Source of the DNA: Actinocorallia herbida
GTDB taxonomy: Bacteria; Actinomycetota; Actinomycetes; Streptosporangiales; Streptosporangiaceae
NCBI RefSeq assembly: GCF_003751225.1
Contig: NZ_RJKE01000001.1
Location: 6,200,001-6,264,000 of the forward strand
Length of the DNA stretch: 64,000 nt
Direction: 5' to 3'
Shown here piece by piece: positions 15,162 through 31,724 of the stretch (positions within the stretch are counted from its first letter, which is position 1; every line of letters begins with the position of its first letter). A model generated the notes under the pieces. That model saw nothing but the letters and a program-made list of their open reading frames with translations. It did not search any database and was not told the DNA's origin. The position numbers and the translations under genes were made by a program.

Positions 15162-16885
15162 TCGGCAAGGTGTTGCGGGGGCAGCGGGTCGGTGGGCTTC
15201 TCCGGTACCTCTTCGGTCCCGGGGCTCGTGGCGAGCACGAGGACCCGCGGATCGTCGCCGGCTTCGGGGAGACTGCCGAGCTGGAGCCGGCGCTCTCGTC
15301 GCTTGGTCGGCGGGATTTCCGGAAGCTGGAGGCGCTCATGTCGCAGCCGCTGTCCCTGCTCGATCCGCTGGGCGGAGTGAACCGTCCGGTCTGGCACTAC
15401 CCGATCCGCGCTCATCCGGACGATCCGGTGCTGACGGATGAGCAGTGGGCGGAGATCGCGCGGGAGGTCGTGCACGCCGTCGGCTACGCCCGCCGCGATG
15501 ACGAAGGGGGCTGCCGCTGGTTCGCGGTGCGGCATGCCGACGACCACATTCACCTCGTCGTCACCCTCGCCAGGCAGGACGGCACGCGGCCCGAGGTGCG
15601 CAATGACGCACTGCGGGGACGGCAGGCCCTGCTGCGGATCGAGCGGAGGCTGGGGCTGGTGCGCACGGCGCCGGCCGATCGTACGGCGGCCCGGAGAGCC
15701 ACCCGAGGAGAGATGGAGAAGGCCGGACGAGTGGGGCGCTCAGAGCCCTCTCGGGACACGTTGCGAAGGGTCGTCACCACGTGTGCCGCGCGAGCACGCT
15801 CGGAGGCCGAGTTCTTCGAGCTTCTCAGAGGGGAAGGACTCGTCGTCAAGACGCGGGAGAGCCGGGTGCAGCCTGGTGAGATCACCGGCTACGCGGTCGG
15901 GCTTGCTGGCGATGTCGCCGCTGGTGGCGCTTCGGTCTGCTTCGGCGGCGGCCGACTGGCCTCCGATCTGACGCTTCCCCGGCTGCGGCGTCGATGGCCT
16001 TCTGGAGCTGTCCGGGCCGATCCGCGTGATCCGGATCGTTCCGCGGTGTGGGGAGAGTCGCTCTCCCTACCGACGGTCAGAGCGGTCTTGCGGAGGACCC
16101 TACGGGAGTGCGCCGAGGGCGCGGCGAGCCTCGACGAGTTCTTCTCCCGCGTGGAGCAGGCGGGGATGCTGCTGAAGGTCCGTTACAGCGAACGCGTCCC
16201 TGGTCAGGTCACCGGGTATTCCGTCGCCCTTCCGGGCGATCTGGAGCCTCCCGGATCGATCCGCTGGCACGGAGCGGCGCGGATCGATCCTTCCCTCAGT
16301 CCTTCTCGGCTCGCGGAGGCGCGCCGGTCCGAGGCGCCCATGACCCATGAAGAGCTGCAAGGCATCTACGACGATGCGGCGAGGGCGGCGTCCGCGGCGG
16401 CGGAGCGCATTCGAAACCTCGTCGGCGTCGATCCCAAGGCCGCTCATGATGCCGCTCGGGCTGTCTCCGACGTCCTGCATGTGGCTTCTTGGGCGACCGG
16501 GAACCACCATCTGCGCCGGGCCGCGGACGACTTCGATCGGGCCGCAAGGCCTCCGAACGCCGTTGTCCCACGGCCGTCCCCGGCGGGTCGGCGGCTTCGG
16601 ACCTCGGCGCGGCTCCTGTCGCTGGGCGGGCTCGTCGGCAACCGGACGACGCTGGATGTGCTCGCGCTGGCCGTGGCGCTCTCGCGGGCGACCCGGGAGG
16701 TCGGCGTGCTCCGCGCCTCCGAAGGCCGCCATGCCCAGGCCTCCGCCGCGTACCGCTGCGCCGCTCACCTGGACGAGCTCGTGCCCGGTGCCAAGGCGCG
16801 CCGCGTGGCTTCGTTCTCGGCCGAGCGGACCGCGTCGCGGGTCAGCCCCGACGTCGCCGGTCGGCGGCGGCCGCGGCGAGGATGA
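15158..16885 (+). CDS. Relaxase / mobilization nuclease
   Basis: This 575-residue protein has an N-terminal MobA/VirD2-type relaxase domain (residues 1-170). The triple-His metal site is 'WFAVRHADDHIHLVV' (His126, His130, His132). A candidate catalytic Tyr is Tyr17 in 'GGLLRYLFGPG'. Two homologous segments follow, each beginning 'TLRRVVTTCAARARSEAEFF' or 'AVLRRTLRECAEGAASLDEF' and containing 'VSRVQPGEITGYAV'-like sequence, an internal repeat typical of actinobacterial relaxases. The C-terminus is helical. It is coupled to mobC, and its last 44 bases overlap the convergent XRE gene. It should nick oriT and lead the strand through the secretion apparatus. Confidence 0.88.
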   Translation: MIGKVLRGQRVGGLLRYLFGPGARGEHEDPRIVAGFGETAELEPALSSLGRRDFRKLEALMSQPLSLLDPLGGVNRPVWHYPIRAHPDDPVLTDEQWAEIAREVVHAVGYARRDDEGGCRWFAVRHADDHIHLVVTLARQDGTRPEVRNDALRGRQALLRIERRLGLVRTAPADRTAARRATRGEMEKAGRVGRSEPSRDTLRRVVTTCAARARSEAEFFELLRGEGLVVKTRESRVQPGEITGYAVGLAGDVAAGGASVCFGGGRLASDLTLPRLRRRWPSGAVRADPRDPDRSAVWGESLSLPTVRAVLRRTLRECAEGAASLDEFFSRVEQAGMLLKVRYSERVPGQVTGYSVALPGDLEPPGSIRWHGAARIDPSLSPSRLAEARRSEAPMTHEELQGIYDDAARAASAAAERIRNLVGVDPKAAHDAARAVSDVLHVASWATGNHHLRRAADDFDRAARPPNAVVPRPSPAGRRLRTSARLLSLGGLVGNRTTLDVLALAVALSRATREVGVLRASEGRHAQASAAYRCAAHLDELVPGAKARRVASFSAERTASRVSPDVAGRRRPRRG

Positions 16886-17703: not shown

Positions 17704-18524
17704 CCGGCAGCAGGACCCTCCTGTGGTGCCGGCTGGCCCTCGTTCCTCCCATCGCCGCCCTCGCAGTGCTCGGAGCCATCGGCTCCTTCGCCACCGTCCG
17801 GGCGGCGGCCGTTCCGTACTTCGGCGCCGACCTCGCCTGGATCGTGCCCGTTGGACTGGATCTCGGCATCCTCGTCCTCATCTGCTGGGACCTCCTGCTC
17901 GAACTCGACGACACACCCTGGCCCGTCCTGCGCTGGATCGCCTGGTCCTACATCGGCGGCACCGTCCTGGTGAACACCTCCGCCGCCCACGGAGACCCCG
18001 CCGCCACGGCCGCGCACGCGGCCATGCCCGTCCTGTTCATCACCGTCACCGAAGGAGTGCGCTTCCAAGTCCGGCGCAGGGCGGGCCTGGCGTCCTCATC
18101 CGGCCGGGAGCGGATTCCCCGCGCGCGGTGGCTCCTCGCCCCTGTCTCCACGACGCTCCTGTGGCGCAGGATGGTCCTCTGGCAGGTCGCTTCCTACACC
18201 CGGGCCCTCGAACTGGAGCAGGAGAGACTCATGCTGATCTCGCAACTCCAACAGAAGCACGGCCGCTTCTCCTGGCGGTGGCGCGCCTCCGTCGCCGAAC
18301 GGCTGATGCTGAAGACTCCCCCAGCCGAAGACACCCCCGAAGAAGACGAGGAGCTGGTACTCGCCGCCTGCCTCATCCTGGCTTCGCACGAGGCGGACGG
18401 CCGGCGTATCAGCAACACCGGCCTTGCCCGGAAGCTGCGGGATGACGGCCACAGCGTGGCCAACGAGCGTCTCGCAGGCGTCGTCCGCGCCGCGCGGGCC
18501 CGGATGAACGGGGCACTCCCGTGA
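17700..18524 (+). CDS. DUF2637 membrane protein with C-terminal helix-turn-helix-like domain
   Basis: A 274-residue protein. The first 125 residues contain four hydrophobic segments ('LVPPIAALAVLGAIGSFATV', 'LGILVLICWDLLLEL', 'WIAWSYIGGTVLVNT' and the segment around 'HAAMPVLFITVTEGV'), the DUF2637 layout. A basic helical region and an acidic linker ('PPAEDTPEEDEE') follow. The last 70 residues look like a winged helix ('GRRISNTGLARKLRDDGHSV'). DUF2637 proteins are common in mating and spread (spd-like) gene sets of actinomycete plasmids and ICEs. It overlaps both neighbours by a few bases. Confidence 0.8.
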   Translation: MTGSRTLLWCRLALVPPIAALAVLGAIGSFATVRAAAVPYFGADLAWIVPVGLDLGILVLICWDLLLELDDTPWPVLRWIAWSYIGGTVLVNTSAAHGDPAATAAHAAMPVLFITVTEGVRFQVRRRAGLASSSGRERIPRARWLLAPVSTTLLWRRMVLWQVASYTRALELEQERLMLISQLQQKHGRFSWRWRASVAERLMLKTPPAEDTPEEDEELVLAACLILASHEADGRRISNTGLARKLRDDGHSVANERLAGVVRAARARMNGALP

Positions 18525-20383
18525 GGAACGACCTCGAAGCACTCCTCCGAACGATCACCCGCCAAGAGCTGGAGCGCGTGCACCGGGGCGAACTCGCCTG
18601 GGAGACCGTCGTGGAACGGATGGCCGCCTACGGCCGATACGGCTTCGCCAACGTCCTGCTGATCGGCGCCCAGCGGGAGGTGACCGACGTCCGAACGTTC
18701 GAAGAGTGGAAGGCGGCGGGGAGGCGGGTCCGCAAGGGCGAACACGCCATCCGCGTCCTCTCCCGCCAGGGCAAGCCCCGATCTGTCTTCGACCTCGCCC
18801 AGACCTCCGGTCCCGAGACTGTCCTCGGTACAGCGGACAGACCCGCATGGCAGAGTGTGAAGGCGCTCGCCACATCACGGCGCCTCTTCGTGGACCGCGG
18901 CAGCACCTGGTCCTACCTAGGCGATCCGAGCAAGCGCGTCGTCATCCCGCCCGGGCTCGATGACGACGCCGCCGCGCTCTTCCTGGCTCACCAGCTGGCG
19001 CACATGGTCCTGCACCGGGGCGAACTCGACGATGGCAGCCGCGTATGCGCGGGGATCGGCAAGGTCGAGGCCGACTCCGTCGCGGCCATCGTCGCGCGCG
19101 AACTCGGCCTGCCGATCACACCGGCGACGGCTCCGGTCTCCTCCTGGGCGGGCACCGACCCGAGGTCCCGGCCCCTGAAGACGATCGAGCACGTCGGAGG
19201 ACGGATACTGCGCGCGGCGGCCGTGCTCCGCCGCGACCTACAGAAAGCAGCGAACGAGCCGACGGCGGAGGCGAAGGACCGATCGGCCGCCGAAGAACCG
19301 ACAGCAGAGCCACCCGACCGAGCGCTCCTCGAAGCCCTCAAGGCAGCCCATCTCTTCTTCGTCGGCCGATTCCCCACGTCATGGGCTCCCGGCTATCTGA
19401 CGAGACGCGGCTTCCCCGAGGCCTACCAGCTCCAGCGGCAGGCAGGATACGCACCGAACGGCTGGCGCGGGCTCCTCGATGCCCTGACTTCTCAAGGCTT
19501 CCCCCTGGAGACGCTCGTCGAGGCCGGACTGGTGAAGGTCCGCAACGGCCGCGCCTTCGACGTCTTCCGGGACCGCCTCGTCGTCCCCGTCCGCAGCGAG
19601 CACGGCGAGGTCGTCGGCTTCATCGGCAGAGCAGCCCCAGGCGACACCGGCCCCAAGTACCTCAACAGCCCGGAAACGCCCGTCTACAAGAAGGGCGCGC
19701 TTCTCTATGGCCTCCACGAAGCAGCTCCGAAGCTCGCCGCAGGCGCCCGCCCCGTCATCGTCGAAGGCGTCCTCGACGCCTGGGCGATCGACCTGTCCTC
19801 CGACGCCCACGCGGCCGTCGCCCCGAGCGGAACCGCCCTCACCGAGGACCAGGTCGGCCTCCTCGCCGGCGCCGCCGACCTCACCACCCGCGGCCCTCTC
19901 CTCGCCCTCGACGGCGACACCGCCGGCCGCCGCGCCACCGCCCGCGTCTGGAAGGCGTTCACGCAGGTCAGCGGAAATGTCGGCGCCATATGCTTCCCTG
20001 ACTCCCAAGATCCAGCCGACCTTTTCCTGCACCACGGACCCGTAGGAGTCCGCCATGAACTCGCACAAGAACGCGACCTCATCGAGCACGTCCTCGACGC
20101 CGCGATCGCCGAAGGCCTCGCCCGGGGAGATCCCGCATCCGCGCTGCGGACAGCCGCCGAAGCCATCATCGGCCTCGGCCGTCACAACGCCGCACGGCAC
20201 GCAGCCCGCGTCGCCCAAGGCCTCGACATCGACCCGCGAGAAGTGACCCGGCACCTCATCAACGCCGCCTCTCCCCCGGCCAGAGCCTCGGAGACCTTCC
20301 CGTTAGCCGCGACCACCGCCCACACGGACCCGCCCCCTCCGACCCCGAAAACACGCCACGACAGCAGGAGCAGACGACCATGA
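18521..20383 (+). CDS. ArdC-like / DnaG-type primase fusion
   Basis: The protein has 620 residues in two modules. Residues 1-200 match ArdC-like antirestriction proteins: 'YGFANVLLIGAQ', 'VRKGEHAIRVL' and a metallopeptidase-like 'HQLAHMVLH' (157-165) with 'VEADSVAAIVA' (Glu183). The canonical Glu of HExxH is Gln158, so peptidase activity is doubtful. Residues 285-500 are a DnaG catalytic core: 'RAFDVFRDRLVVPV' and 'GPKYLNSPETPVYKKGALLYGL' (Toprim_N), 'VIVEGVLDAWAI' (Glu415) and 'LALDGDTAGRRA' (Asp464, Asp466). The CHC2 zinc finger is missing. It probably protects the incoming strand and primes its complement. Confidence 0.85.
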   Translation: MRNDLEALLRTITRQELERVHRGELAWETVVERMAAYGRYGFANVLLIGAQREVTDVRTFEEWKAAGRRVRKGEHAIRVLSRQGKPRSVFDLAQTSGPETVLGTADRPAWQSVKALATSRRLFVDRGSTWSYLGDPSKRVVIPPGLDDDAAALFLAHQLAHMVLHRGELDDGSRVCAGIGKVEADSVAAIVARELGLPITPATAPVSSWAGTDPRSRPLKTIEHVGGRILRAAAVLRRDLQKAANEPTAEAKDRSAAEEPTAEPPDRALLEALKAAHLFFVGRFPTSWAPGYLTRRGFPEAYQLQRQAGYAPNGWRGLLDALTSQGFPLETLVEAGLVKVRNGRAFDVFRDRLVVPVRSEHGEVVGFIGRAAPGDTGPKYLNSPETPVYKKGALLYGLHEAAPKLAAGARPVIVEGVLDAWAIDLSSDAHAAVAPSGTALTEDQVGLLAGAADLTTRGPLLALDGDTAGRRATARVWKAFTQVSGNVGAICFPDSQDPADLFLHHGPVGVRHELAQERDLIEHVLDAAIAEGLARGDPASALRTAAEAIIGLGRHNAARHAARVAQGLDIDPREVTRHLINAASPPARASETFPLAATTAHTDPPPPTPKTRHDSRSRRP

Positions 20384-21361: not shown

Positions 21362-22255
21362 CTATCGAACGCGGCGAACCAGGTCGGCGAGTGCGAGCCG
21401 TCCCCGTTCGACGAGGACGACGTCGTGGTTCCTCCTTCCGGTGGACCAGTACGAGACGGCCAGGCGAGCGGTCAGCAGGACGAGCATTCGGTACTCATCG
21501 CGGCTCAGTGCGCGACCGTATCCGTCCAGGAACGCCTCCTCCAGGTCTGGACGGCTGGTCCACAGCGCTCCGAACAGCCAGACCATGTCCTGCACCGCCA
21601 GCCCGGGGCCAGCTTCCTGAAAGTCGATCACGCCGAGGTCGCCTGCGTCTGCGTGCCACAGCCAGTTCCGACTCCCGAAGTCTCCATGCAGATACATCAA
21701 CGGCATCGACTCGGCGAGGGCGGGAAGCTGCTCGACCTCGCCGATCAGGGCGCGCGTTGCAGCGTCGAGTTCGTCGCTGAGATGCTCCAGACATGCTGCC
21801 GCTTCGGCCGCCTGGCCGGTCATCGCCGCTTTGAGCGTGGCACGGGCTCGCGCGGATTCGGGCTCAGGGTGTTCATGCCAGGCACGTAGGATGCTGCCCG
21901 CAAGCCGGTGAACTCGCGTTTCTGTCGCCCTGGACAAATCCAAGTGGCGCACGATTTCGCCCGGGAGTTCCGTGACCACGATCGCGCGCAGCCCCGGTTC
22001 CGCAGCGAGCAGGCGCGGGGATTGACCCGGAACGAGTGCTTCCTGGGCGTGACGGAACCCGCTGATCTCGCGCTCAAATGCATCCAGGCTCGGGCTCATC
22101 TTCGCGTAGGCCACGGTGGATGTGGTCTGTACCCGCCAGACCCGGGAGGTCTCCCGGTCCCAGGAGGTGTCGGTCGCGGCTATGAACGTGCCGGGCAGGT
22201 GTCCGGTGAGCCACTGCCGAAGATCGTCGGGAATCGGTGCCGAATCGCCCATCAT
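21362..22255 (-). CDS. APH/choline-kinase-fold phosphotransferase
   Basis: This 297-residue kinase-fold protein shows Brenner's motif 'MYLHGDFGSRNWLWH' (catalytic Asp, metal-binding Asn) and the second metal site 'GVIDFQEAGPG'. The N-lobe Lys appears to be in 'STVAYAKMSPS'. Two Met codons, 22255 and 22252, follow GGAG; the second has the better spacing. The real substrate is unknown: APH folds act on aminoglycosides, homoserine, choline and others. It is the last gene of the minus-strand mur-like cluster, and a second APH protein at 29885-30766 closes the other side. I infer a role in that pathway or in self-protection. Confidence 0.8.
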   Translation of the reverse strand: MMGDSAPIPDDLRQWLTGHLPGTFIAATDTSWDRETSRVWRVQTTSTVAYAKMSPSLDAFEREISGFRHAQEALVPGQSPRLLAAEPGLRAIVVTELPGEIVRHLDLSRATETRVHRLAGSILRAWHEHPEPESARARATLKAAMTGQAAEAAACLEHLSDELDAATRALIGEVEQLPALAESMPLMYLHGDFGSRNWLWHADAGDLGVIDFQEAGPGLAVQDMVWLFGALWTSRPDLEEAFLDGYGRALSRDEYRMLVLLTARLAVSYWSTGRRNHDVVLVERGRLALADLVRRVR

Positions 22256-22390
22256 CAACTCCAATTGCCGATGTCTCCATCGCCCATGGACGCCGGAGGA
22301 ACTCGGCGACAACGGCTCCGGCGGAGTGGCACCTGTCTCCCATGACGGCCCTGCCCTTGTCACTGAACGGTCGTCGACCAGCGACGAAGC

Positions 22391-23764
22391 TCAGAGGTTC
22401 AGGGCGTCTGCGAAGTTCTCGAGCCCGACGAAGCGAGACGCCTTGATCAGGACGGTGTCGTCGGGTTCCAGGATTCCGGTCAGCAGGGGTAGCAGTGTCT
22501 CGGGGCTTTCGGTTGTCTCGATGCGGGGCTGACGGGCGTGGTCGGCGGCGGCGTCTGCGAGAGCGGTGATGTTCGTTCCGGTGCCGACGGTGATCAGGAT
22601 GTCGGTGCCGAGGGCGGCGGCGAGGCGGCCGATCTCGGTGTGGGCTGCTTCGGCGGTTTCGCCTAGTTCGCGCATTTCGCCGAGGACGGCGATGGTGCGG
22701 CGGGTTCCTGCGACGGCGTGGAGGGTTTGGAGGGCGGCTCGGGTGGATTCGGGGTTGGCGTTGAAGGCGTCGTTGATGATCGTCACGCCGTCGGGGCGTT
22801 CGGTGACTTCCAGGCGGCCTGCGGAGACGGGGGCGGCCTCGGTGAGTGCTTGGGCGATGGCGGTGGCTTGCATGCCGACGGCGTGGGCGGCTCCGGCGAC
22901 GGCGAGGGCGTTGTGGATCTGGTGGCGGCCAAGGAGTCGGAGCTTGACCGGGGCGGTGCCGGTCGGGGTGTGCAGGGTGAAAGCGGCGCGGCCGTCGGCG
23001 AGGGTGATGTCGGTGGCTCGGATGGTCGCGGTGGCGGTGGTGCCGTACGCGAGGACTGCGGCGCTCGTCTGGTCGGCCATCGCGGCGACGAGGGGGTCGT
23101 CGGCGTTGAGGACGGCGAACCCGTCGGCGGGGAGGGCTTGGACGAGTTCGGATTTGGCCTTGGCGATGGAGGCGCGGTCGCCGAATTCGCCGACGTGGGC
23201 GGTGCCGATGTTGAGGACGATGCCGATCTGGGGCGGGGTGAGGGTGGTGAGGTAGGCGATGTCGCCGATGTGGCGGGCGCCCATCTCCAGGACGAGGTAG
23301 CGGGTCGTGTCGCCGGTGCGGAGGACCGTGAGGGGCAGGCCGAGTTCGCCGTTGAACGACTTCTGGGTGGCGACGGTCTCGCCGTGGTGGGCGAGGACCT
23401 GGGCGAGGAGGTCTTTGGTGGTGGTCTTGCCCGCCGAGCCGGTCAGGGCGATGATGGTGGCGTGGGTGCGGGCCAGGACGTACTGGGCGAGCTTCCCGAG
23501 CGCGGCGGTCACGTCGGGGACGATGACGGCCGGGGCGTCAACGGGGCGGGTAGCGAGCACGCACACCGCCCCGGCCTTCATGGCTTGGGGCACGTAGTCG
23601 TGGCCGTCGACGCGGGCGCCGGTGAACGCGACGAACATGCCGCCGGGCACGACGGCGCGGGAGTCGATCACGGAAGGCGCGGTCGCCCGGGCGTCCGGGT
23701 CGGGCACGTCGTGCAGGGTGCCGCCGGTCGCCTCGGCGATCTCGCCGAGCGTCAGGATGATCAC
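22391..23764 (-). CDS. MurF-like ligase (UDP-MurNAc-tripeptide D-Ala-D-Ala ligase family)
   Basis: A full-length Mur ligase of 457 residues. The N-terminal domain begins 'IILTLGEIAEATGG' and contains 'FVAFTGARVDGHDYVPQA'. The ATP loop is 'ALTGSAGKTTTKDLL', followed by 'FNGELGLPLTVL' and 'DAFNANPESTRAAL', all MurF signatures. MurF adds D-Ala-D-Ala to the UDP-MurNAc-tripeptide in the cytosol. GTG 23764 overlaps the stop of the C39-like gene. This copy lies in mobile cargo without ftsW or other division genes, so it is an extra paralogue. It may join a dipeptide to an unusual acceptor. Confidence 0.85.
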   Translation of the reverse strand: MIILTLGEIAEATGGTLHDVPDPDARATAPSVIDSRAVVPGGMFVAFTGARVDGHDYVPQAMKAGAVCVLATRPVDAPAVIVPDVTAALGKLAQYVLARTHATIIALTGSAGKTTTKDLLAQVLAHHGETVATQKSFNGELGLPLTVLRTGDTTRYLVLEMGARHIGDIAYLTTLTPPQIGIVLNIGTAHVGEFGDRASIAKAKSELVQALPADGFAVLNADDPLVAAMADQTSAAVLAYGTTATATIRATDITLADGRAAFTLHTPTGTAPVKLRLLGRHQIHNALAVAGAAHAVGMQATAIAQALTEAAPVSAGRLEVTERPDGVTIINDAFNANPESTRAALQTLHAVAGTRRTIAVLGEMRELGETAEAAHTEIGRLAAALGTDILITVGTGTNITALADAAADHARQPRIETTESPETLLPLLTGILEPDDTVLIKASRFVGLENFADALNL

Positions 23765-24300
23765 GAAGTCCTCCCGGGCAGAGGTGCGAAGGTGATGGCG
23801 CGGCCGGAGTAAGAGGCCACCGCGCGGGTGAACGGAACACGGTCGTGGTCCTGGCCCCACCGGGACGGGTCCCGGAACAGCAGATCCCCGCGGTCGTGGC
23901 CGCGCGCGACGACGAGATGGCCCCCTCGTCGACCGTCCTCGGGGAACCGTTCGGTCACCGAGAAGATCAGCGGAGCCTCGGTGAGGCGATCCAGGAGATC
24001 CTCAGCGGCGACGGGCTCTGCCTGGGCGGGCACCCCGAACTCTGTCGCGATCTCGGCCAGACCGGCGTGCAGCCAGCCCGTCCCGGTGATGAAAGCCTCC
24101 CGCTTCACCCCGAGCTTCACCAGTTCGGTGAGCGGCGGCGTGTCCTGCCCGTAAGCGAGAAGGATCATGCGTAGCGAAGCCATCCCGCAGGCCCGGTTCG
24201 ACCACTCAAGGCGGTCGCCGAGGGCCCAGCCTCCGCACCTGTCCCATTCCTCGGGCTCGATGAGCTGACGGCACATCGGCACGTCGTGGACGCGGGACAC
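23761..24300 (-). CDS. C39-like / papain-fold cysteine peptidase
   Basis: This 179-residue protein has the triad layout of C39-type cysteine peptidases: 'SNRACGMASLRMIL' (Cys38), 'GRRGGHLVVARGHD' (His128) and 'LLFRDPSRWG' (Asp144). 'ACGMASL' corresponds to the C39 motif around the nucleophile. There is no signal peptide or transporter domain, so it should act in the cytosol. It starts at GTG 24300 and overlaps murF. Next to peptide-ligase homologues, it may trim, transfer or hydrolyse a peptide intermediate. A transpeptidation or amide-transfer role is equally possible. Confidence 0.7.
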   Translation of the reverse strand: MSRVHDVPMCRQLIEPEEWDRCGGWALGDRLEWSNRACGMASLRMILLAYGQDTPPLTELVKLGVKREAFITGTGWLHAGLAEIATEFGVPAQAEPVAAEDLLDRLTEAPLIFSVTERFPEDGRRGGHLVVARGHDRGDLLFRDPSRWGQDHDRVPFTRAVASYSGRAITFAPLPGRTS

Positions 24301-24326
24301 GGTGCGCGGCCTCCCCTTCGTTCGGA

Positions 24327-25394
24327 TCAACCAGAGGCGACCTCGAAGACCGGCTCCGGCAAGGGTCCACTGTAGGCGGGGCGGGTCAGTGCTTCGTGGA
24401 GGATCGCGGTCACGACGTCGGCGTGGTCGAATCCGCAGAGTTCGGCGGCGGTGACGAAGTTCGACTCGCTCGACAGGCCCGGATTGGTGTTGACCTCCAG
24501 AGCGTACGGCTCGCCGATCCGGGTGACCATGAAGTCGACGCGGGCCAGGCCCCGGCAGCCGAGGCCGTCCCAGAGCTTGACGGCGAAGTGCTCCAGGGCC
24601 GCGAGCGCCACAGGCGTGAGGTCGGCGGGGCGGGTGCGGACGGTACCGGTGCTGTCGGCGTCGAGTTTGGAGGCGGCGTCGTAGAACTCCGCGTCCGGTA
24701 CATCGGTCATCAGCGGCGGCAGGACGAGCAGGCCATCGGGCAACTCCAGGAGCGCGACCGTCACCGGGGTACCCGGTATGTAGTCCTCGATCAGGACGTG
24801 GCCTGAGTCGACCGCCGCGGCCTCTTCCACCGCCGTCCTGAGCCCGTCGAGGGTGTGGACGAGACTCATGCCGACGCTGGACCCGCCGAGCGAGGGCTTG
24901 ACCATGGCCGGGCGGCCCGCCCACTCCCAGGTCCGGCCGTCCCAGACCCGCCACCCGGGCGTCGGAACCTCCAGACCTCGCATGGCTCGCTTGCACAGGA
25001 GCTTGTCGGCGGCCACCGCGGAGGCTGCCACGCCGCTCCCGCAGTAGGGCTTGCGCAGGTAGTCGAGCAGCCCCTGGAGCCGACCGTCTTCGCCGTAGGG
25101 GCCGTGGAGGTTCGACAGCACCACGTCGTAGCCGGCGATACTACGGACGAAGGCGGGCTCGCACGGGTCGAGGATGTCGAAATGCACACCGATCGACTTG
25201 AGCGAGCGGGCCAGCGCGGTGACCGACATCTGCTCGACCGGGCTCTCTGCGATGTAGAGCCGGTCCTCGGTGGAGACTCCTCCGTACACCAGCGCGACGG
25301 ACAGCCCGGCGCATCGCTCCGCCCGCCAGGAGCGGAGGACATGGAGCTGCGCTTCGACTGCGGGCGTATCGGCGGCGATGAGGCGATGGTTCAT
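24327..25394 (-). CDS. D-alanine-D-alanine ligase-like ATP-grasp enzyme
   Basis: A 355-residue ATP-grasp ligase. 'NLHGPYGEDGRLQGLLDYL' matches the Ddl signature HGxxGEDG. 'MVKPSLGGSSVGMS' is the ATP-binding loop, 'VLIEDYIPGTPVTVALLE' the grasp strand, and 'ALEVNTNPGLSSESNFVTA' carries the metal-binding Glu and Asn. Ddl joins two D-Ala residues. About 45 residues precede the usual Ddl start ('LSVALVYGGVSTED'), an N-terminal extension. Side-chain choice (D-Ala, D-Lac, D-Ser or another amino acid) cannot be judged by eye. It overlaps dapF by ATGA. Confidence 0.85.
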   Translation of the reverse strand: MNHRLIAADTPAVEAQLHVLRSWRAERCAGLSVALVYGGVSTEDRLYIAESPVEQMSVTALARSLKSIGVHFDILDPCEPAFVRSIAGYDVVLSNLHGPYGEDGRLQGLLDYLRKPYCGSGVAASAVAADKLLCKRAMRGLEVPTPGWRVWDGRTWEWAGRPAMVKPSLGGSSVGMSLVHTLDGLRTAVEEAAAVDSGHVLIEDYIPGTPVTVALLELPDGLLVLPPLMTDVPDAEFYDAASKLDADSTGTVRTRPADLTPVALAALEHFAVKLWDGLGCRGLARVDFMVTRIGEPYALEVNTNPGLSSESNFVTAAELCGFDHADVVTAILHEALTRPAYSGPLPEPVFEVASG

Positions 25395-26227
25395 GCCAGT
25401 ACTCCTTCGTAGACGACGGTGACGGGCCCGCCGACCCAGAACGTCTCCGGCCGCTGCGCATGCGGACGGACGGTGAGCGGGCTTCCAGACTGGTTGTGGA
25501 CCGCGACCGGGCGGTCGTCGACGAGGCCGTGCCGGCGAGCGACGACGAAGGAAGCCACAGCACCGCTCCCGCACGAGAGGGTCTCGGCTTCGACTCCGCG
25601 CTCATAGGTACGCACCCGAAGTTCGTCGCGCGCCACGGCCTGGACGAAGTCGACGTTCGTGCCGAGCGGAGCGAGCCGCGGGTGGTCGCGCACGGCGCGT
25701 CCTATCCCCTCGACGTCGAGGTCGTCCAGTTCCTCGACAAGAGCGACGAAATGCTCCGTCCCGGTGTGAGCCGGCTCGAAGGTGAGGTGTCGTCCACTGC
25801 GGCCAAGGGTGAGCGGCTCCTGCGGCGTCGTGCCGAGTTCCGCGGTCACTTCGGCATGGCCGCCCGTCACGATCGCCTGGTGTTCGACGCCCGCCATGAC
25901 AAGGCGCAGCGCCGCCGAGGAATCGTCGGGGGCTGCAGCGAATGCGGCGCATCGCAGCGCGTTCCCGCACATGGTCGCGATCGAGCCGTCGGCATTGAAG
26001 CAGGCAACCAGAAGGATGCGGTCTCGGAGTGTTCGCGCGGTGAGTACAAGGCCGTCCGCGCCGATTCCGAGCCGCCGCTCGCAGAGCAGCCGCGCCTTCG
26101 TGGCCCAGTCCCGCTCCAGGTCGGTGGGCTGGACGTCGATCAGAATGAAGTCGTTTCCCGCGCCGTGGAGCTTACGGAACGGGACGGCGTCTTGCGGTGA
26201 CGCCGTTGCTTGCCGCGAGTTCTGCAT
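25391..26227 (-). CDS. Diaminopimelate epimerase-like protein (DapF family)
   Basis: A 278-residue DapF-family protein with both catalytic cysteines in context: 'NADGSIATMCGNALRC' (Cys87) and 'ETLSCGSGAVASFV' (Cys219). The N-terminal 'FRKLHGAGNDFILID' is diagnostic. DapF converts LL- to meso-diaminopimelate, the stem-peptide residue made in the cytosol. The start ATG 26227 lies behind GGAGG. Residues 1-14 form a short extension. The chromosome must have its own dapF, so this copy likely feeds the dedicated pathway, or epimerises a related amino acid. Confidence 0.87.
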   Translation of the reverse strand: MQNSRQATASPQDAVPFRKLHGAGNDFILIDVQPTDLERDWATKARLLCERRLGIGADGLVLTARTLRDRILLVACFNADGSIATMCGNALRCAAFAAAPDDSSAALRLVMAGVEHQAIVTGGHAEVTAELGTTPQEPLTLGRSGRHLTFEPAHTGTEHFVALVEELDDLDVEGIGRAVRDHPRLAPLGTNVDFVQAVARDELRVRTYERGVEAETLSCGSGAVASFVVARRHGLVDDRPVAVHNQSGSPLTVRPHAQRPETFWVGGPVTVVYEGVLA

Positions 26228-26257
26228 ACCGGCCTCCGTTGTTCGACGGTCTTGGCG

Positions 26258-27655
26258 TCAGCCCAGGCGGGCGGTCTCGACCGCTTCCGTCGCGGTGGCG
26301 AGGGCCGGGGCGAGGTCGGCGACGTCTCCGGTGCCCATCAGGACGATCACGTCACCGGGCTTCACCGCCTCCAGGAGCGCATCCGTGGCTTCGGCCAAGT
26401 CCCTCGCGACGGCGCGGACGCGCCTCTGGCGGTCGGCGATCATCGGGAGCAGATGGTCGTGCTCGCCGCCGGTGTAGCGGGTGTGGAGGGGCAGGAGGAC
26501 GGTCTCGTCCGCCGCGGCCAGCGCCAAGGCGATCTCGGTGTACATCGTGGTGACGCGGTGCAGGCCGGAAGGCTGAAAGGCCAGGATGAGGCGTCCCCTG
26601 CATTCGTCGGCGAGCTGCCGCGCCGCTTCGAGGTCGGCGCGGATGGCGGTGGGGTGATGGGCGTAGGAGGTCAGGATGGTGGTTCCGGTATCGAACGTGG
26701 AGTGGGTCAGTCGCCTCTCGACCCCGGCGAAGGTCTCCAGAGCCTGGGCTGCATCAGCCTCCGGGACACCATAGAGACCCGCGACCGTGATCGCGCCGAC
26801 GGCGTTCAGCGCCTGCTCCTCACCCAGGACGGGGAAGGTGAAGGTGACGCCGGAGGTAAGGGCCACGACGGAGCCGGCCCGGCCGCTCTCGATGCGTTGG
26901 ATGCGCATGTCGGCTGCCGCGGTCCGGCCGTAGGTGGTGATGTGCGGGCTGCCGCCGATGCCCAAGAGCCTGTGGCGCAGCATCATCGCACCGCCGTCGT
27001 CCCCGCACAGGACCAGCTGGGTGTCCTCGCCCAGGTGACGACCCCACTGCTCGAAGGCGTCGACCAGTTCGCCGTACCTGCCGTTGTAGTTCTCCAGGTG
27101 GTCGGCGTCTAGGTTGAGGACGAGCGCGATCGGCGGTGAGGTGAGCAGGAACGACCGGTCGCTCTCGTCGACTTCGGCGACCCCGGCCTCTCGGATGGAC
27201 CATCGGGCCGCCTCCATGCCGATGGGGCTGCCGCCGATCGCCCAGGTCGGGTCAAGGCCGCTCCGCAGGAGGATGTGGGCGAGCATCGCCGTGGTGGTGG
27301 TCTTGCCGTGGGTGCCGGTGACGGCGGTCCAGTTGTGGTCCGCCAGCACCAGGTCGAGCGCCTGTGCCCGGTGGACGACGGGGATCCCCTGCACCTTGGC
27401 CGCCGACACTTCGACGTTGGTCTCTTCGATCGCCGTGCTCCGGACGACGACGGTCCGGCCGTCCACATGGTGCGCCGCGTGGCCGCCACGAGAGGCGTCC
27501 GAGCCGGTCACCGTCGTGCCCGCACCGCGCAGCAGTGTGGCGAGCGGTGCCATGCCGAGGCCACCTATGCCCACCAGGTGCGGCCGGGACAGATCGACGT
27601 CGGCAACGGCCTGTGGTCTGCCACCCGGCCAGGGCATTCTTCGGGTTTCGGTCAT
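26258..27655 (-). CDS. MurC-like ligase (UDP-MurNAc-L-Ala ligase family)
   Basis: A 465-residue Mur ligase starts at ATG 27655 behind GAAGGG. 'HLVGIGGLGMAPLATLL' is the GxGGxGM Rossmann start specific to MurC/Mpl, and 'AVTGTHGKTTTTAML' is the ATP loop. 'NLDADHLENY' and 'SYAHHPTAIRADLEAAR' match the catalytic and C-terminal MurC motifs. MurC attaches L-Ala to UDP-MurNAc. With MurF, Ddl and DapF homologues nearby but no MurD or MurE, the set does not reproduce the normal stem-peptide pathway. Confidence 0.87.
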   Translation of the reverse strand: MTETRRMPWPGGRPQAVADVDLSRPHLVGIGGLGMAPLATLLRGAGTTVTGSDASRGGHAAHHVDGRTVVVRSTAIEETNVEVSAAKVQGIPVVHRAQALDLVLADHNWTAVTGTHGKTTTTAMLAHILLRSGLDPTWAIGGSPIGMEAARWSIREAGVAEVDESDRSFLLTSPPIALVLNLDADHLENYNGRYGELVDAFEQWGRHLGEDTQLVLCGDDGGAMMLRHRLLGIGGSPHITTYGRTAAADMRIQRIESGRAGSVVALTSGVTFTFPVLGEEQALNAVGAITVAGLYGVPEADAAQALETFAGVERRLTHSTFDTGTTILTSYAHHPTAIRADLEAARQLADECRGRLILAFQPSGLHRVTTMYTEIALALAAADETVLLPLHTRYTGGEHDHLLPMIADRQRRVRAVARDLAEATDALLEAVKPGDVIVLMGTGDVADLAPALATATEAVETARLG

Positions 27656-27734
27656 TGTTTGCCCTTCAGGAATGAGTCCGCGCGCCTGGACCCGCGCGGA
27701 CTCGGGGAGCTTCTGATGTCCAGGACGGGGGCTT

Positions 27735-28160
27735 TCAGTGCTGGGCCGGCGTCGGAGCCGATCGCCGCGCCAGAAGTTCCGCCAGCTCGTCGATACGGTC
27801 GGCGGGGAAGTAGAGGACGGACTCGGGTCGCAGGCCGGTCGGTTCCAGGACGGACGCTGCGGCCCACTGCGCGTCGCGCAGGTCATGGGCGATACCCAGG
27901 AGCAGCTGCAGGTCCGGCGTCGGCATGCCCAGGTAGGCGAAGCCGTCGAAGTAGGTCGCGCGCCGGAACCGCTCGGCCGGAGAGAGGGCCGCCCCGCCGA
28001 GCGCGTAGAAGTCTCCGGTGTCCTCGCAGCACTCGATGGTGTCCAGACCGGTCGCCCACAGGGCTTGGACCAGCCCGGCCATCTGTACGTCGATCTCGAC
28101 GCGGCGACCGTCAGGCCGCCGCATGGGCCGGGTCGGATGAATCTGATATCGCGCAGGCAT
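27735..28160 (-). CDS. Hypothetical protein, first gene of the mur-like operon
   Basis: A 141-residue protein starting at ATG 28160. It contains 'VQALWATGLDTIECCEDTG', followed by 'FDGFAYLGMPTPDLQLLLGI' and a C-terminal helical stretch ('RIDELAELLARRSAPTPAQ'). The double Cys and acidic surroundings could bind a metal, though this is speculative. I do not recognise the family. It is the promoter-proximal gene on the minus strand and lies downstream of the 28295-28315 palindrome, so it is probably co-regulated with the ligases. Confidence 0.65.
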   Translation of the reverse strand: MPARYQIHPTRPMRRPDGRRVEIDVQMAGLVQALWATGLDTIECCEDTGDFYALGGAALSPAERFRRATYFDGFAYLGMPTPDLQLLLGIAHDLRDAQWAAASVLEPTGLRPESVLYFPADRIDELAELLARRSAPTPAQH

Positions 28161-28294
28161 GTGTCGACCCTTCGGGGAACGCCGTTCGTCAGGTATGTGG
28201 CCGCCCCCCTCTGCTGGTTGAGGTGGGCAGCCCGTCTCCTTGCCGCAAGCATGCTGCGGACGGCGGCCTCTGCTCATTCGAAGGAGAAATAGTC

Positions 28295-28315
28295 GATATT
28301 CCAAGCTGGAATATC
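28295..28315. promoter_or_regulatory. Perfect 9-bp-arm palindrome, probable operator
   Basis: GATATTCCA (28295-28303) and TGGAATATC (28307-28315) are exact inverted arms around AGC. This is strikingly AT-rich against its surroundings. It sits in the divergent promoter between the mur-like operon (first start 28160) and the TPR regulator (28389), the natural position for control of both transcripts. Confidence 0.6.
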
Positions 28316-28388
28316 TTCAGCCCGGGTGACGTACCGTCCGCTTAGACTGGCGTTCGGTGATTGCAGGGAGTTTCTTGCGGGAGGTCGG

Positions 28389-29882
28389 GTGCAAAACGGT
28401 TCAAAATCGCGCGCTCGGTGCCGTTGCGGCATAGTCCTGGCGCGCGACAACTCGGCCCAACTGTGCGCGTCGTGCCAGCGGACGCGACGGGACCTGCTGC
28501 AAGCCGCACCGTTGGTTCCACCGGCGTTCTGGGAGCACCCGTCGATCGTCTCGGCGGTCACCGCCCGACACTTCGGGCAGCTCATCCACGCCTTCCGGCA
28601 CCACCCGGATCATGTGCGGCCCATCCCCCAGGCCACGGTCGCCCGCTGGCTGCACGTCACACAGGCGACGATCTCCAAGGCGGAGAACGGGCGACGTCCC
28701 CTCACCGACCTCGCGCGCCTCACGTCCTGGGCCGGACTGCTCGCCGTGCCGAGACATCTCCTCTGGTTTTCGCCTTCACCCGAAACCCGGGAGGAACTCT
28801 CCCACGGCATCATGGAGGCCGAGGCTTCTGAAAGTGGGGATCAGATGCGCAGGCGCGAATTCATCGCATTCTCCGGGACGACCGTGGCGGCCATGTCGAG
28901 CGACCTTCTCTCAGCACTGGACGCCGCCCAGTCCCCCGACCGGGTCTCCATCGAGCACATCGAACAGATCGACCAGGCAGCCGCCCTCTTCTCCCAGCTC
29001 GACCACACCTACGGCGGGGCGCCCGTCCGCCAAGCCGTCACCACCCACCTCAAGTGGGCCATCGGACTCCTCGACAACTCCTGCCCCGTCTCGCTACGAG
29101 GCGAGCTGTTCTCCTCCGTCGGCCGCCTCTCTCTGACCTGCGGGTGGATGGCCTTCGACGCCTACGCCCACGACCACGCCTCCGCGATGCTCAAGTACGG
29201 ACTCGCCTGCGCCGAAGAGGCAGACGACTGGCACCTCAGGGCGAAGGCCCTCTCCCACCTCGCCCGCCAGCAGGTGTGGTGCAACGACCCCGACGGAGCC
29301 CTCACCCACATCGACCTGGCCCTCATCACCTCCCCGAAGGGAACGATCACCGCGACAGAACGCGCAATGCTCCACACCGCCCGCGCCCGTGCTCTGGCCC
29401 GGCGTGCCCTTCTCGGCGACGCCGACTCCATCGAGGGCGCCTTGCGCGCCATCGGAGATGCCGACGACGCGTTCTCCCACTCCGACCCCGCCACGGACCC
29501 CTCATGGATGTCGTACTACGACCAGGCCCAGCACGTCGGAGACACCGGGCACGCGCTCTTCGACCTGGAGACCGCTCCCTCCGGAGGCTCCTTGGGCGCG
29601 CGGACCCGGTTGGCGGAGGCCGCCTCACTCCACACGGACGCCTACGCCCGCTCGCGCGCCATCTCCACCACGAAACTGGCCACGCTCTTGATGCTGACCG
29701 GCGATCCCGACGAAGCTTCCCAGGTCGCCGTGTCGATGCTTCCCGACGCGGGCCGTATCAAGTCCCGCCGTGCCATGTCCGATCTCGCGGAACTCTCCCG
29801 GGCCGCCCTGCCTCACACACGGCGATCCGCGGTCGCAGATCTGCGTGAGCAGATCGTCGGCATCGCCCGTCGGGCCAGCTGA
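28389..29882 (+). CDS. XRE-type regulator with TPR-like C-terminal domain
   Basis: The protein has about 497 residues from GTG 28389, which is preceded by GGGAGG; the frame is open upstream to 28326. A zinc-ribbon-like pair ('CRCG', 'CASC') near residues 12-30 is followed by a helix-turn-helix ('HVTQATISKAENGRRPL') and, from residue 170 on, by helical repeats resembling TPRs. The domain order is that of actinobacterial regulators often found beside biosynthetic genes. It is divergent to the mur-like operon, sharing the 28295-28315 palindrome. It is followed at 3 bp by an APH gene, so it likely controls this cluster. Confidence 0.78.
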   Translation: MQNGSKSRARCRCGIVLARDNSAQLCASCQRTRRDLLQAAPLVPPAFWEHPSIVSAVTARHFGQLIHAFRHHPDHVRPIPQATVARWLHVTQATISKAENGRRPLTDLARLTSWAGLLAVPRHLLWFSPSPETREELSHGIMEAEASESGDQMRRREFIAFSGTTVAAMSSDLLSALDAAQSPDRVSIEHIEQIDQAAALFSQLDHTYGGAPVRQAVTTHLKWAIGLLDNSCPVSLRGELFSSVGRLSLTCGWMAFDAYAHDHASAMLKYGLACAEEADDWHLRAKALSHLARQQVWCNDPDGALTHIDLALITSPKGTITATERAMLHTARARALARRALLGDADSIEGALRAIGDADDAFSHSDPATDPSWMSYYDQAQHVGDTGHALFDLETAPSGGSLGARTRLAEAASLHTDAYARSRAISTTKLATLLMLTGDPDEASQVAVSMLPDAGRIKSRRAMSDLAELSRAALPHTRRSAVADLREQIVGIARRAS

Positions 29883-29884
29883 CG

Positions 29885-30766
29885 GTGGACATCGAAGCGG
29901 TGGTGGCGCAGGCGCGCAGACACGCCGGGCTCGCCGCCTCGCGGACGACGCTGATTCACCGCGGGGAGAACATCCTTGTCGGCGCCGACGATGCCGTCAT
30001 CCGCATCGGACGGGTCGGCGAAGTCCCCGGGACCACGCGCGAGGTGGCGTTCGCCCGCTGGCTCGAAGAACGCAAGATTCCCGCAGTCCGCCCCCTCCCG
30101 ATTGAACAGCCCATCGAGGTCGAAGGCCACCCCGTCACCTTCTGGGAGAGGCTCCCCGCGCACCGGCAGGCCCGGCCCGCAGAGATCGGCGAAGCACTGC
30201 GCAGGCTCCACGCGGCAGCCGCACCCGACATCGGCCTACCTCGGCTCGACCCGTTCGCCCGACTACCCCAGCGCATCTCCGCCGCCACCACTTTGACCGA
30301 CGACGACCGCAGATGGCTCACCACCCGCCTCTCCACCCTTCGCGAACAGTGGAACCGCCAAGGCCTCGACGCCGTGCCCCACTCGGTCATCCACGGCGAC
30401 ATCTGGGCCGGCAACGTCGTCGTCCTTCATGGAACCAGCATCCCGATCATGCTCGACTTCGAGCGCTGCTCCGTCGGCCCCGCCGCCTGGGACCTCACCT
30501 CCATAGCGATCAAGCGCACCTCCTTCGCCTGGATCACCGACGACGAATACATGGAGTTCACCAGCGCCGTCGGCGACGATGTCACCGCCTCGCCCCACTA
30601 CGATCTGCTCCGCGACGTCCGGGAACTCCGCATGACCTGCTACCTCGGGCAGCACGCCGCCGAGAACCCCGGAACGCCCGCCGCTCAAGAGGCCGAGTTG
30701 CGCCTTCAGTGCCTGCGAGGAACGCACGGCCCCAGGCCCTGGCCCTGGACACCAGCCGCGACGTAG
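29885..30766 (+). CDS. APH-fold phosphotransferase, second copy in the cluster
   Basis: This 293-residue protein starts at GTG 29885, directly after the regulator. 'SVIHGDIWAGNVVVL' is Brenner's motif with catalytic Asp and metal-binding Asn, and 'IPIMLDFERCSVGPAAWDL' holds the second metal-binding Asp. 'NILVGADDAVIRIGRVGEV' looks like the N-lobe nucleotide-binding strands. It is more standard than the 21362-22255 protein and only distantly like it. The target could be a pathway intermediate or an antibiotic; the sequence cannot decide. Confidence 0.78.
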   Translation: MDIEAVVAQARRHAGLAASRTTLIHRGENILVGADDAVIRIGRVGEVPGTTREVAFARWLEERKIPAVRPLPIEQPIEVEGHPVTFWERLPAHRQARPAEIGEALRRLHAAAAPDIGLPRLDPFARLPQRISAATTLTDDDRRWLTTRLSTLREQWNRQGLDAVPHSVIHGDIWAGNVVVLHGTSIPIMLDFERCSVGPAAWDLTSIAIKRTSFAWITDDEYMEFTSAVGDDVTASPHYDLLRDVRELRMTCYLGQHAAENPGTPAAQEAELRLQCLRGTHGPRPWPWTPAAT

Positions 30767-30797: not shown

Positions 30798-31186
30798 CTA
30801 CGCGGGTGTCCGAAACAGGTTGGGGGCGACGACGAGCTGCTGGATCCGGAAATACCGCGTGACCTCGTGCAGCGGGCTGGCCGACTTCTGCACCTGACGA
30901 AGGCCGGTCCCCCTCCTGCCCCGCCATTCGACGTACATGCCGGCGATGTCCCGGACCGAGACCAGGAGTCGTCGGGCTCGACCACGGCGTCGCAAGTCTG
31001 GCATCAGGCGCGCATGTCGTCCGACGAGGGCATCTGCTTACCGTGTTCTCTCTAGAAGATCTTGATCGCGTTGTGCCATCCGGCCGCGGCGGCGAGCGAC
31101 TCGGCGGTAGGGCCCGCCTCTATCGGGATCTCGCGCAGCCGAAGACCGAGCGCCTGGCGCGCGGCGAGAACGTTGGAGACAGGCAT
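30798..31186 (-). pseudogene. Decayed XRE-DUF5753 regulator
   Basis: The N-terminal piece (31186-31052) has the start of the regulator family, 'MPVSNVLAARQALGLRLREI', and 'AAAAGWHNAIKIF', where the HTH stops prematurely. A second piece (31004-30798) in another frame matches the DUF5753 start: 'MYVEWRGRRGTGLRQVQKSA' and 'EVTRYFRIQQLVVAPNLFRT'. Most of the HTH and the DUF5753 body are missing. In actinomycetes the intact gene normally pairs with a DUF6879 protein, present intact next door. Confidence 0.7.
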
Positions 31187-31199
31187 CGAGGAAACGGGT

Positions 31200-31724
31200 T
31201 CACCGGATGAGTCGGAAGGCGGAGTGGTCGGTGCCACGTTCCCAGACAGCCTCGAAGGCCTCCGCGCACAGGCGGACGGCTGCGGCATCGGTCGAGACTT
31301 CGCCGGCCTGGACCGTGCCGTCGCCCGCGAAGTGGTTCCACTGGACGACCGCGTCGTCAAAGAGCCAGAAGTCCGTTCCCGGCAGGGCCAGGTCCGCAGC
31401 GCCACGTCGTGGAAGCCAGCGCACCAACTCGCCCGCCGCGAGGTTCGTGGAGGACGTCACGGCATGCTCGTACGCGATGTAGTCGGTCACGGGCTCCGAG
31501 ACGATCCGCGCACGGCGCACGACGACGCCCCGTGAAAGCAGCTCAGCGAGGATGTCCTTCCACATGGCCTCACGCTCCGCGCGGTCGAACGATTCTCCCT
31601 TCAGCCAGAGATCGTAGGACGGGTCGCTGACCGCGTAGACGTCGCGCATCTCCAGGTGGACCGCCGAGCGCGCCGACGCCGCGAGGAGGTCCGTAAACTC
31701 CTCAAGCGTCGTGGACGCCGTCAA
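31200..31724 (-). CDS. DUF6879 family protein
   Basis: A 174-residue protein with the DUF6879 core: 'SVHLEMRDVYAVSDPSYDLW' is followed by 'RRARIVSEPVTDYIAYEHAV', 'AAGELVRWLPRRGAADLALP' and 'DFWLFDDAVVQWNHFAGDG'. I place the start at TTG 31724 because AAGGAGG is at 31733-31739. DUF6879 genes commonly sit with XRE-DUF5753 regulators; the molecular role is unknown to me. Here its partner (30798-31186) is a pseudogene, so this gene may be an orphan. Confidence 0.75.
   Translation of the reverse strand: MTASTTLEEFTDLLAASARSAVHLEMRDVYAVSDPSYDLWLKGESFDRAEREAMWKDILAELLSRGVVVRRARIVSEPVTDYIAYEHAVTSSTNLAAGELVRWLPRRGAADLALPGTDFWLFDDAVVQWNHFAGDGTVQAGEVSTDAAAVRLCAEAFEAVWERGTDHSAFRLIR

Follow-up and report, generated by a model that had tools for sequence, protein, structure and literature searches.

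A racemase, Ddl and C39 peptidase cassette among conjugation genes of Actinocorallia herbida and its possible part in peptidoglycan-precursor remodelling

In this study, a window of 64,000 nt (C1:6200001-6264000) from Actinocorallia herbida, whose 9.80 Mb genome forms a single contig, was analysed with regard to a minus-strand cassette encoding a MurC-like ligase, a DapF-family epimerase, a D-Ala-D-Ala-ligase-family enzyme (Ddl), a C39-like peptidase and MurF (Table 1). These five genes, the small protein before them and the APH-fold kinases at both ends had been described in a sequence-only reading of the same DNA, and their boundaries and families were confirmed, as was the divergent HTH-TPR regulator, which we assign to the NsdA family. 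Three gene pairs had been said to overlap by GTGA or ATGA; only two such overlaps of 4 nt were found, between DapF and Ddl (ATGA) and between C39 and MurF (GTGA), and the other gaps measure 26-79 nt. The motifs reported as intact are so in DapF, C39 and MurF, while Ddl, otherwise intact, differs at one specificity site and the MurC-like protein does not keep all of them. It was also observed that the cassette extends beyond the limits first drawn, as a DUF6879 gene and an HTH/DUF5753 remnant match the front of the Streptomyces operon described below, the DUF6879 protein being about 52-55% identical to 10 Streptomyces module copies.

Table 1. Features of the cassette and of its carrying element (positions within the window)
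Feature	Position	Strand	Family or evidence
APH-fold kinase, start uncertain	21362-22363	-	PF01636
MurF, full length	22391-23764	-	TIGR01143
Cytosolic C39-like cysteine peptidase	23761-24300	-	PF13529
D-Ala-D-Ala-ligase-family enzyme (Ddl)	24327-25394	-	PF07478
DapF-family epimerase/racemase	25391-26227	-	TIGR00652
MurC-like ligase, divergent	26258-27655	-	TIGR01082, under cut-off
Small protein, 141 aa	27735-28160	-	Family not assigned by Pfam/NCBIfam
Inverted repeat, possible operator	28295-28315	.	Two 9-bp arms, 3-nt spacer
NsdA-family HTH-TPR regulator, start uncertain	28326-29882	+	NF053720, 258.7 bits (cut-off 75)
Second APH-fold kinase	29885-30766	+	PF01636
Decayed HTH/DUF5753 regulator remnant, two pieces, about residues 4-128 of 281	30807-31183	-	tblastn with Streptomyces module regulator
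DUF6879 protein, first gene of the Streptomyces operon form	31200-31724	-	PF21806, 170 bits
Relaxase of the carrying element	15158-16885	+	PF03432
Primase/Toprim protein, ArdC-like N-terminus	18521-20383	+	
Conjugation genes: TraG/type IV secretion system (T4SS) coupling protein, HerA/TraG-like ATPase, neighbour	39245-43946	-	
NlpC/P60 and lytic transglycosylase wall hydrolase	46751-47695	+	

Relatives counted by their C39 gene amount to 78 distinct loci (numbered with the prefix L), 40 with a close C39, the window included, and 38 with a more distant one. Duplicates were removed on identical C39 protein only, and near-identical strains may remain. A close C39 (at least 180 bits) was noticed in 20 of 392 Streptomyces genomes (L223 and L233 having proteins identical to those of L007 and L015), a C39 match of at least 100 bits in 6 of 297 genomes of the window genome's own family, and a class-wide draw of 394 genomes disclosed such a match in two, the window genome and G015. 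Among the 40 close loci, Ddl is present in 35, DapF in 32, a C-terminal piece of MurF in 30 and DUF6879 in 27. Eighteen of the 20 Streptomyces stretches show the order DUF6879, HTH/DUF5753, dapF, ddl, c39 and murF C-terminus, with a small open reading frame (ORF), a NUDIX gene and another small ORF ahead of dapF in most; of the remaining two, one has ddl in pieces and the other C39 and MurF pieces only. A tblastn-type scan with DapF gave 11 Streptomyces contigs in which dapF-ddl-C39 is followed by the C-terminal part of MurF only, and plasmid records added three DapF-type copies (L106, L107 and L112). The 4-nt overlap of dapF and ddl recurs in 30 of the 34 rows holding both genes, two rows being duplicates. 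In L106 (NZ_CP108986.1, 8825-10931), C39 and a full MurF are preceded by a Ddl match of only 40 residues, and the module front appears to be lost; in L108 (NZ_CP108821.1, 11450-15862), a tgmABC ATP-grasp cluster for a ribosomally synthesized and post-translationally modified peptide follows the module end.

A sister type was found among the more distant loci. Sixteen of the 38 hold Ddl, accompanied by a pyridoxal phosphate (PLP) enzyme in 12, full MurF in nine, a MurC-like gene in five, a D-aminopeptidase-family gene (M55) in four distinct loci and a MurF C-terminal piece in one, and the Ddl, PLP and C39 genes are tightly packed, the distance from the Ddl to the PLP gene being -4 to +23 nt in most. 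Its carriers include the S. chartreusis NBC_00865, NBC_01244, NBC_01243/NBC_00053 (same protein), NBC_00998, NBC_01205 and 11x1 plasmids, plus a Nonomuraea plasmid; the C39 protein of the Nonomuraea plasmid NZ_CP107854.1 (198862 bases) is identical to that of G291, a genome of the window genome's family. The recurrent core is a racemase, Ddl and C39, usually with all or part of MurF, and it keeps its order in relatives; its members do not scatter independently. The MurC-like gene, present in 6 of the 78 loci (1 of the 40 close ones and the five just mentioned), is not part of this core, and APH is found in two of the 78. From the order murC-dapF-ddl-C39-murF-APH proposed beforehand, the racemase-Ddl-C39 part has thus stood, and its two outer members have not. 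The first APH of the window has a 45% relative beside the C39 gene in L132/L101, and the small protein, with no match in Pfam (E<=0.1) or NCBIfam (E<=0.001), has two plasmid relatives of 28-31% identity and was not seen beside other module copies.

The Ddl proteins were compared at a position which we take to be that of Leu282 in E. coli DdlB and which presumably sets second-substrate specificity, a link that we did not find in print. Before counting, L017, L234, L242 and L250 (<280 aa) and four identical copies were excluded. All 46 module rows, whichever their type, have Asn at this position and lack the Pro-aromatic pattern after it; all 31 housekeeping-type rows, the genome's two other Ddls among them, have Met, Leu or Ala, and all 3 VanX-linked rows have Arg. 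The latter come from a genus scan in which M15 (VanX-like) genes lie beside Ddl genes in 3 of 13 genomes, with no PLP enzyme detected in the short stretch, and they serve only as Arg-type controls. In a FastTree phylogeny, a split with a support of 0.968 separates both module types and L237 from the housekeeping-type Ddls. The module Ddl is altered at its second-substrate site, as a Van-type ligase would be, and because its Asn differs from the residues of housekeeping-type and VanX-linked Ddls, it probably makes an unusual D-dipeptide.

The racemase slot of the window is occupied by DapF, which scores 183.5 bits against TIGR00652 (cut-off 114.65) and so belongs to the diaminopimelate (DAP) epimerase family. 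C73, C217, N11, N64, N190, E208 and R209 are kept in 33 of 33 rows; these rows include two duplicates and the Nocardia homologue L016, with L121, whose called start lay beyond an upstream stop, and L224, truncated by the contig, excluded. The roles of the contact residues, including those to the distal carboxylate and the distal amine, were taken from PMC8225329. The GNPH motif has become GTEH, N157 being Thr and P158 Glu or Asp. This change was at one point regarded as the sign of a clearly non-DAP enzyme, a view withdrawn since Asn157 is likewise not kept in 66 of 69 control DapFs and the other contacts are kept. A DapF of the same GTEH subfamily was also seen in a putative biosynthetic cluster of Nocardia ninae (L016, 2572-10798), with class-III aminotransferase, GlmS-like and methionyl-tRNA-synthetase (MetRS)-like neighbours, perhaps a pathway with a self-resistance MetRS.

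In the sister type, a PLP enzyme annotated as threonine/serine dehydratase takes the place of DapF. It carries the PLP Lys and the re-face Ser (human Ser84) of the serine/aspartate racemase family, showing SSGNH in 13 of 14 rows (two of them duplicates; 11 of 12 distinct), STGNH in L250, and an FK.RG motif. In human serine racemase, Ser84 serves as the racemisation base (PMC6424897 and PMC5998037); since L-threo-hydroxyaspartate dehydratases retain that Ser as well (PMC6424897), the motif is compatible with a racemase without proving one. As judged by eye in the rows displayed, the loop matching human 152-155 reads PSAN, PSSN, PSAD, PSAG or PSSD (7 of 7) and Arg is kept at the human Arg135 position, and PMC6424897 links Ser at 153-154 with racemisation and Arg135 with acidic substrates. 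From their residues, either racemase type could take an acidic or a hydroxy amino acid as its substrate.

The peptidase is a C39 protein by Pfam and by fold, which sets it apart from the M15 peptidases VanX, VanXY and VanY, and its Cys38 and His128 are invariant in 63 sequences. Its AlphaFold2 model (53 rows) reached a mean pLDDT of 94.7. Against the PDB, Foldseek placed C39 proteases of peptide transporters first, followed by a C39-like protein, papain-fold contact-dependent toxins, phytochelatin synthase and the pseudomurein endoisopeptidase PeiR, and the sequence itself had no PDB match at E<=0.001. Either peptidase or peptidyl transferase activity is compatible with the modelled fold, from which the substrate cannot be read. 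Tandem C39 genes, one of each type and with no Ddl nearby, were noticed in L116 (7804-9081). A phage origin or a defence role was considered as lead reading and rejected, and the phage protection suggested earlier found no positive evidence: C39 had no match in 50,697 phage records (the repeat search used a 60-residue piece only), the Ddl query had no relative in viral contigs, and 0 of 10 proteins matched a defence model of PADLOC-DB, though one plasmid copy adjoins a phage portal gene. The latter is the sister-type module of L139 (NZ_CP122459.1, 7962-14986), on a linear plasmid with MazE7/Doc genes that is possibly a phage-plasmid.

With reference to the Mur ligases, the window MurF scores 427.9 bits against TIGR01143 (cut-off 288.6) and its motifs agree with those of the genome's own MurF; an alteration at HN..N was proposed and withdrawn, as the genome's own MurF is also without that Asn. 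Module MurFs cluster within actinobacterial MurF in the tree, one long-branch housekeeping row falling inside (support 0.231). The median dN/dS is 0.18 for the MurF C-terminal piece (377 of 378 pairs), 0.18 for C39, 0.21 for DapF and 0.24 for Ddl, which indicates purifying selection, and since the piece behaves like the other three, it is regarded as a working protein and not a relic. MurF matches over the N-terminal 143-163 residues only, the converse of the Streptomyces piece, were seen in the DapF-type loci L119 (9395-10114, close to the contig end) and L120 (2137-2784). In L244 (7520-7876), a lone C-terminal piece, 71% identical to the Streptomyces one, stands beside a sister-type Ddl and C39, so the piece crosses module types. 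The MurC-like protein, at 297.8 bits, remains below the TIGR01082 cut-off of 335.1; its P-loop is present, but GMSG differs in its last Gly, HN..N in the HN and DSYAHHP in the Asp, and the N-terminal domain is shorter by about 15 residues. None of the six module MurC-like proteins keeps the GMSG Gly or the HN pair, and the DSYAHHP Asp is lost only in that of the window. Housekeeping copies lie elsewhere in the genome (Mur ligases at about 1.509-1.518 Mb, DapF at 1.132 Mb, Ddl at 0.868 Mb and a second Ddl-like gene at 9.129 Mb); all cassette enzymes are additional to them and are not the only chromosomal copies.

The cassette lies between the relaxase and primase-like genes on one side and the T4SS and NlpC/P60-transglycosylase genes on the other, the coupling and ATPase-like genes occupying 39245-42939. 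Identity between the T4SS genes and those directly beside a related module on plasmid NZ_CP108559.1 amounts to 34-44%. In view of this likeness and of the surrounding conjugation genes, among them the ArdC-like primase and the coupling protein, the earlier description of the cassette as mobile cargo holds. Relaxases encoded 4-6 kb away from the modules of L007-L010 and L012 share 43-47% identity with that of the window, a relaxase relative lies within the stretch in 12 of the 40 close-C39 loci (window included), and relatives of the NlpC/P60-transglycosylase occur near modules in L106, L136 and L140. ISL3-family and Mutator-family transposase genes (7173-8744 and 48358-49149) flank the two sides of the element. 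Two minus-strand ORFs (1512-2744 and 4074-5429) share identical first 40 residues and enclose an ORF pair (2870-4068) that resembles the insertion-sequence pair of L118, which suggests that a repeated gene was interrupted by an insertion.

As for regulation, distant NsdA-like genes adjoin modules in L107, L119 and L137, and DUF6879 with HTH/DUF5753 also follows Ddl-C39-MurF in L241 and L242; the regulators connect DapF-type and sister-type modules. The inverted repeat (GATATTCCA-AGC-TGGAATATC) had been described as an exact palindrome controlling the centre. Its 9-bp arms exist, separated by the 3-nt spacer, and among the compared loci it is present solely in this genome's own copy; because about 0.24 such repeats are expected by chance per 64 kb at that spacing, it is weak evidence of an operator.

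Our data are best explained by a mobile, cell-autonomous, Van-like cassette for peptidoglycan-precursor remodelling, with a logic near that of the pdx operon and a cytosolic C39 in the role of VanX, and we give this reading about an even chance of being right. The broader part of it, a role in stem-peptide or D-dipeptide chemistry as put forward by the sequence-only reading, is likely. Following the residues described above, the racemase or epimerase (DapF, or the serine-racemase-like PLP enzyme in the sister type) would supply a D-amino acid X, and the Asn-type Ddl would join D-Ala, or another D-amino acid, to D-X, where X may be polar, perhaps D-Ser or D-Asp. By family knowledge and by analogy with the Van and pdx operons, MurF, whether the cassette's or the host's, would then place the dipeptide on UDP-MurNAc-tripeptide, and C39 would remove the competing normal dipeptide or precursor, as VanX or VanXY does. 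The MurC-like protein of the few cassettes that hold it may act on a changed substrate or be partly degenerate. The predicted outcome is lipid II and a wall with altered stem ends in element-carrying cells. The M55 genes of four loci, like VanX in pdx operons, would be in keeping with a common requirement to cleave D,D-dipeptides.

Several points weigh against such remodelling. Four close-C39 loci (L116, L117, L118 and L122) are without Ddl and DapF within the stretch examined, and no Ddl was detected in 22 of the 38 more distant loci, which shows that the C39 family extends beyond the module. MurF is present only as the C-terminal piece (about 120 aa) in 31 of the 78 loci, and such a stand-alone piece should not ligate alone. 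Since the Cys pair and the contacts of DapF are kept, the module enzyme may still act on DAP or on another substrate with a distal carboxylate. No VanRS-like pair was seen in the module, the adjoining regulators being of the NsdA family and the DUF6879/HTH remnant, and C39 is not known to include a D,D-dipeptidase, though no search aimed at this was made. Some neighbours are biosynthetic: among distant Ddl-C39 pairs, L237 (5582-11205) holds Ddl, MFS, C39, FemAB/GNAT-like and L-amino-acid ligase genes and is likely a small-peptide pathway, L013, L108 and L112 have amino-acid permease and glutamine-synthetase genes upstream of Ddl-C39, L251 has C39 between FAD-binding and aminotransferase genes, and L016 shows the DapF neighbours given above. 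These neighbours, together with the DAP pocket that DapF retains and the lack of a VanRS pair, are the reason why our confidence in remodelling is no higher.

The same four sets of neighbours favour another explanation, in which the enzymes form a pathway to a small D-amino-acid-containing peptide or nucleotide-peptide (an antimetabolite, signal or inhibitor) and do not act on the carrier's wall. The resemblance of the C39 model to phytochelatin synthase, a dipeptidyl-transferring enzyme, and the changed UDP-site loop of the MurC-like proteins are in line with it. However, neither Pfam nor NCBIfam revealed a transporter gene in the window module, the nine-gene Streptomyces form (DUF6879-HTH-orf-NUDIX-orf-dapF-ddl-c39-murFc) is also without one, and the MurF motifs are normal; we hold this explanation to be unlikely, though it is the main contender.

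A simpler alternative is that the genes are spare copies of essential precursor enzymes which shield the carrier from inhibitors such as D-cycloserine, with no new chemistry. Mobile integron ddl genes that confer D-cycloserine resistance and make only D-Ala-D-Ala are described in PMC7691350, and the retained DAP contacts and ordinary look of MurF agree with this; yet all 46 module Ddls differ from the housekeeping type at the second-substrate site, a peptidase and a swapped racemase misfit simple target duplication, and the MurC-like proteins have lost conserved residues, which makes it improbable. Equally doubtful is a DAP-directed cassette, in which DapF would make meso-DAP or an analogue and the others would build stem peptides or wall fragments (LL-DAP to meso-DAP walls, for example, or wall-peptide recycling): the distal-carboxylate and distal-amine contacts all persist in the 33 rows (roles as given in PMC8225329), but the sister type holds a serine-racemase-like PLP enzyme in the slot with the same Ddl Asn, MurE is absent from the module, and a housekeeping DapF is present anyway.

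If the remodelling reading is right, plasmids and integrated elements of actinomycetes would repeatedly carry genes for wall-precursor remodelling, conjugation would be linked to wall chemistry, and a new D-dipeptide ligase would be gained. The C39 peptidase class and the Asn-type ligase specificity would be features not described for such systems in the literature found, and the environmental pool of genes working like glycopeptide-resistance operons would be larger. Candidate gains for the carrier are tolerance of glycopeptides or lipid II antibiotics, protection from the element's own wall hydrolase, and exclusion. The conserved stand-alone MurF C-terminal domain under purifying selection would be a puzzle open to direct test. 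In a bolder form, which we consider improbable, conjugative elements of actinomycetes would carry their own wall code, the racemase, Asn-type Ddl and a new C39 class of D,D-peptidase rewriting the stem end and so marking the host or protecting it from the wall hydrolase of the element itself, from competing antibiotics that bind lipid II or from entry by related elements, with lone MurF domains retargeting the host MurF.

Among known systems, VanC-type resistance (VanC/VanXY/VanT) combines a D-amino-acid racemase, an altered Ddl and a D,D-peptidase. The module shares this logic and differs in having unrelated peptidase and racemase families and another residue at the Ddl site. The vanHAX clusters of actinomycetes, with an altered Ddl and sometimes a co-located murF-like gene (PMC8698665), differ at that site too, as VanX-linked Ddls have Arg (3 of 3) and the module Asn, and no VanH was found by name in the module. 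DapF-like racemases that apply two-Cys chemistry to non-DAP amino acids are represented by DcsC, PddB and HisR (PMC8225329, PMC11602996); PddB has lost the distal contacts which the module DapF keeps. The integron genes ddl6 and ddl7 are mobile like the module Ddl, but they stand alone and make only D-Ala-D-Ala, according to PMC7691350. In the open-licence PMC literature, the C39 form, the DapF form, the Asn-type Ddl, the MurF pieces and the plasmid or integrative conjugative element setting were not found. The closest likeness is to the pdx operon of Micromonosporales, for which PMC8698665 gives a PALP dehydratase, Ddl, a VanX-like protein and VanRS and proposes D-Ala-D-Ser-like remodelling; this comparison covers the published gene content. 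Both share a compact triad of a Ser/Thr-dehydratase-like PLP enzyme, a Ddl-like ligase and a peptidase, but pdx has an M15 VanX-like dipeptidase and VanRS, whereas the module has C39, possibly DapF, added MurF or MurC-like genes and no VanRS seen. Neither the window, with DapF and C39, nor the sister type, with PLP and Ddl but C39, is therefore a pdx operon. The combination of a racemase-like PLP enzyme, Ddl and VanX is already described there (PMC8698665), and the occurrence of the same core on other actinomycete plasmids and chromosomes suggests a portable, unstudied route by which the cell wall may be changed.

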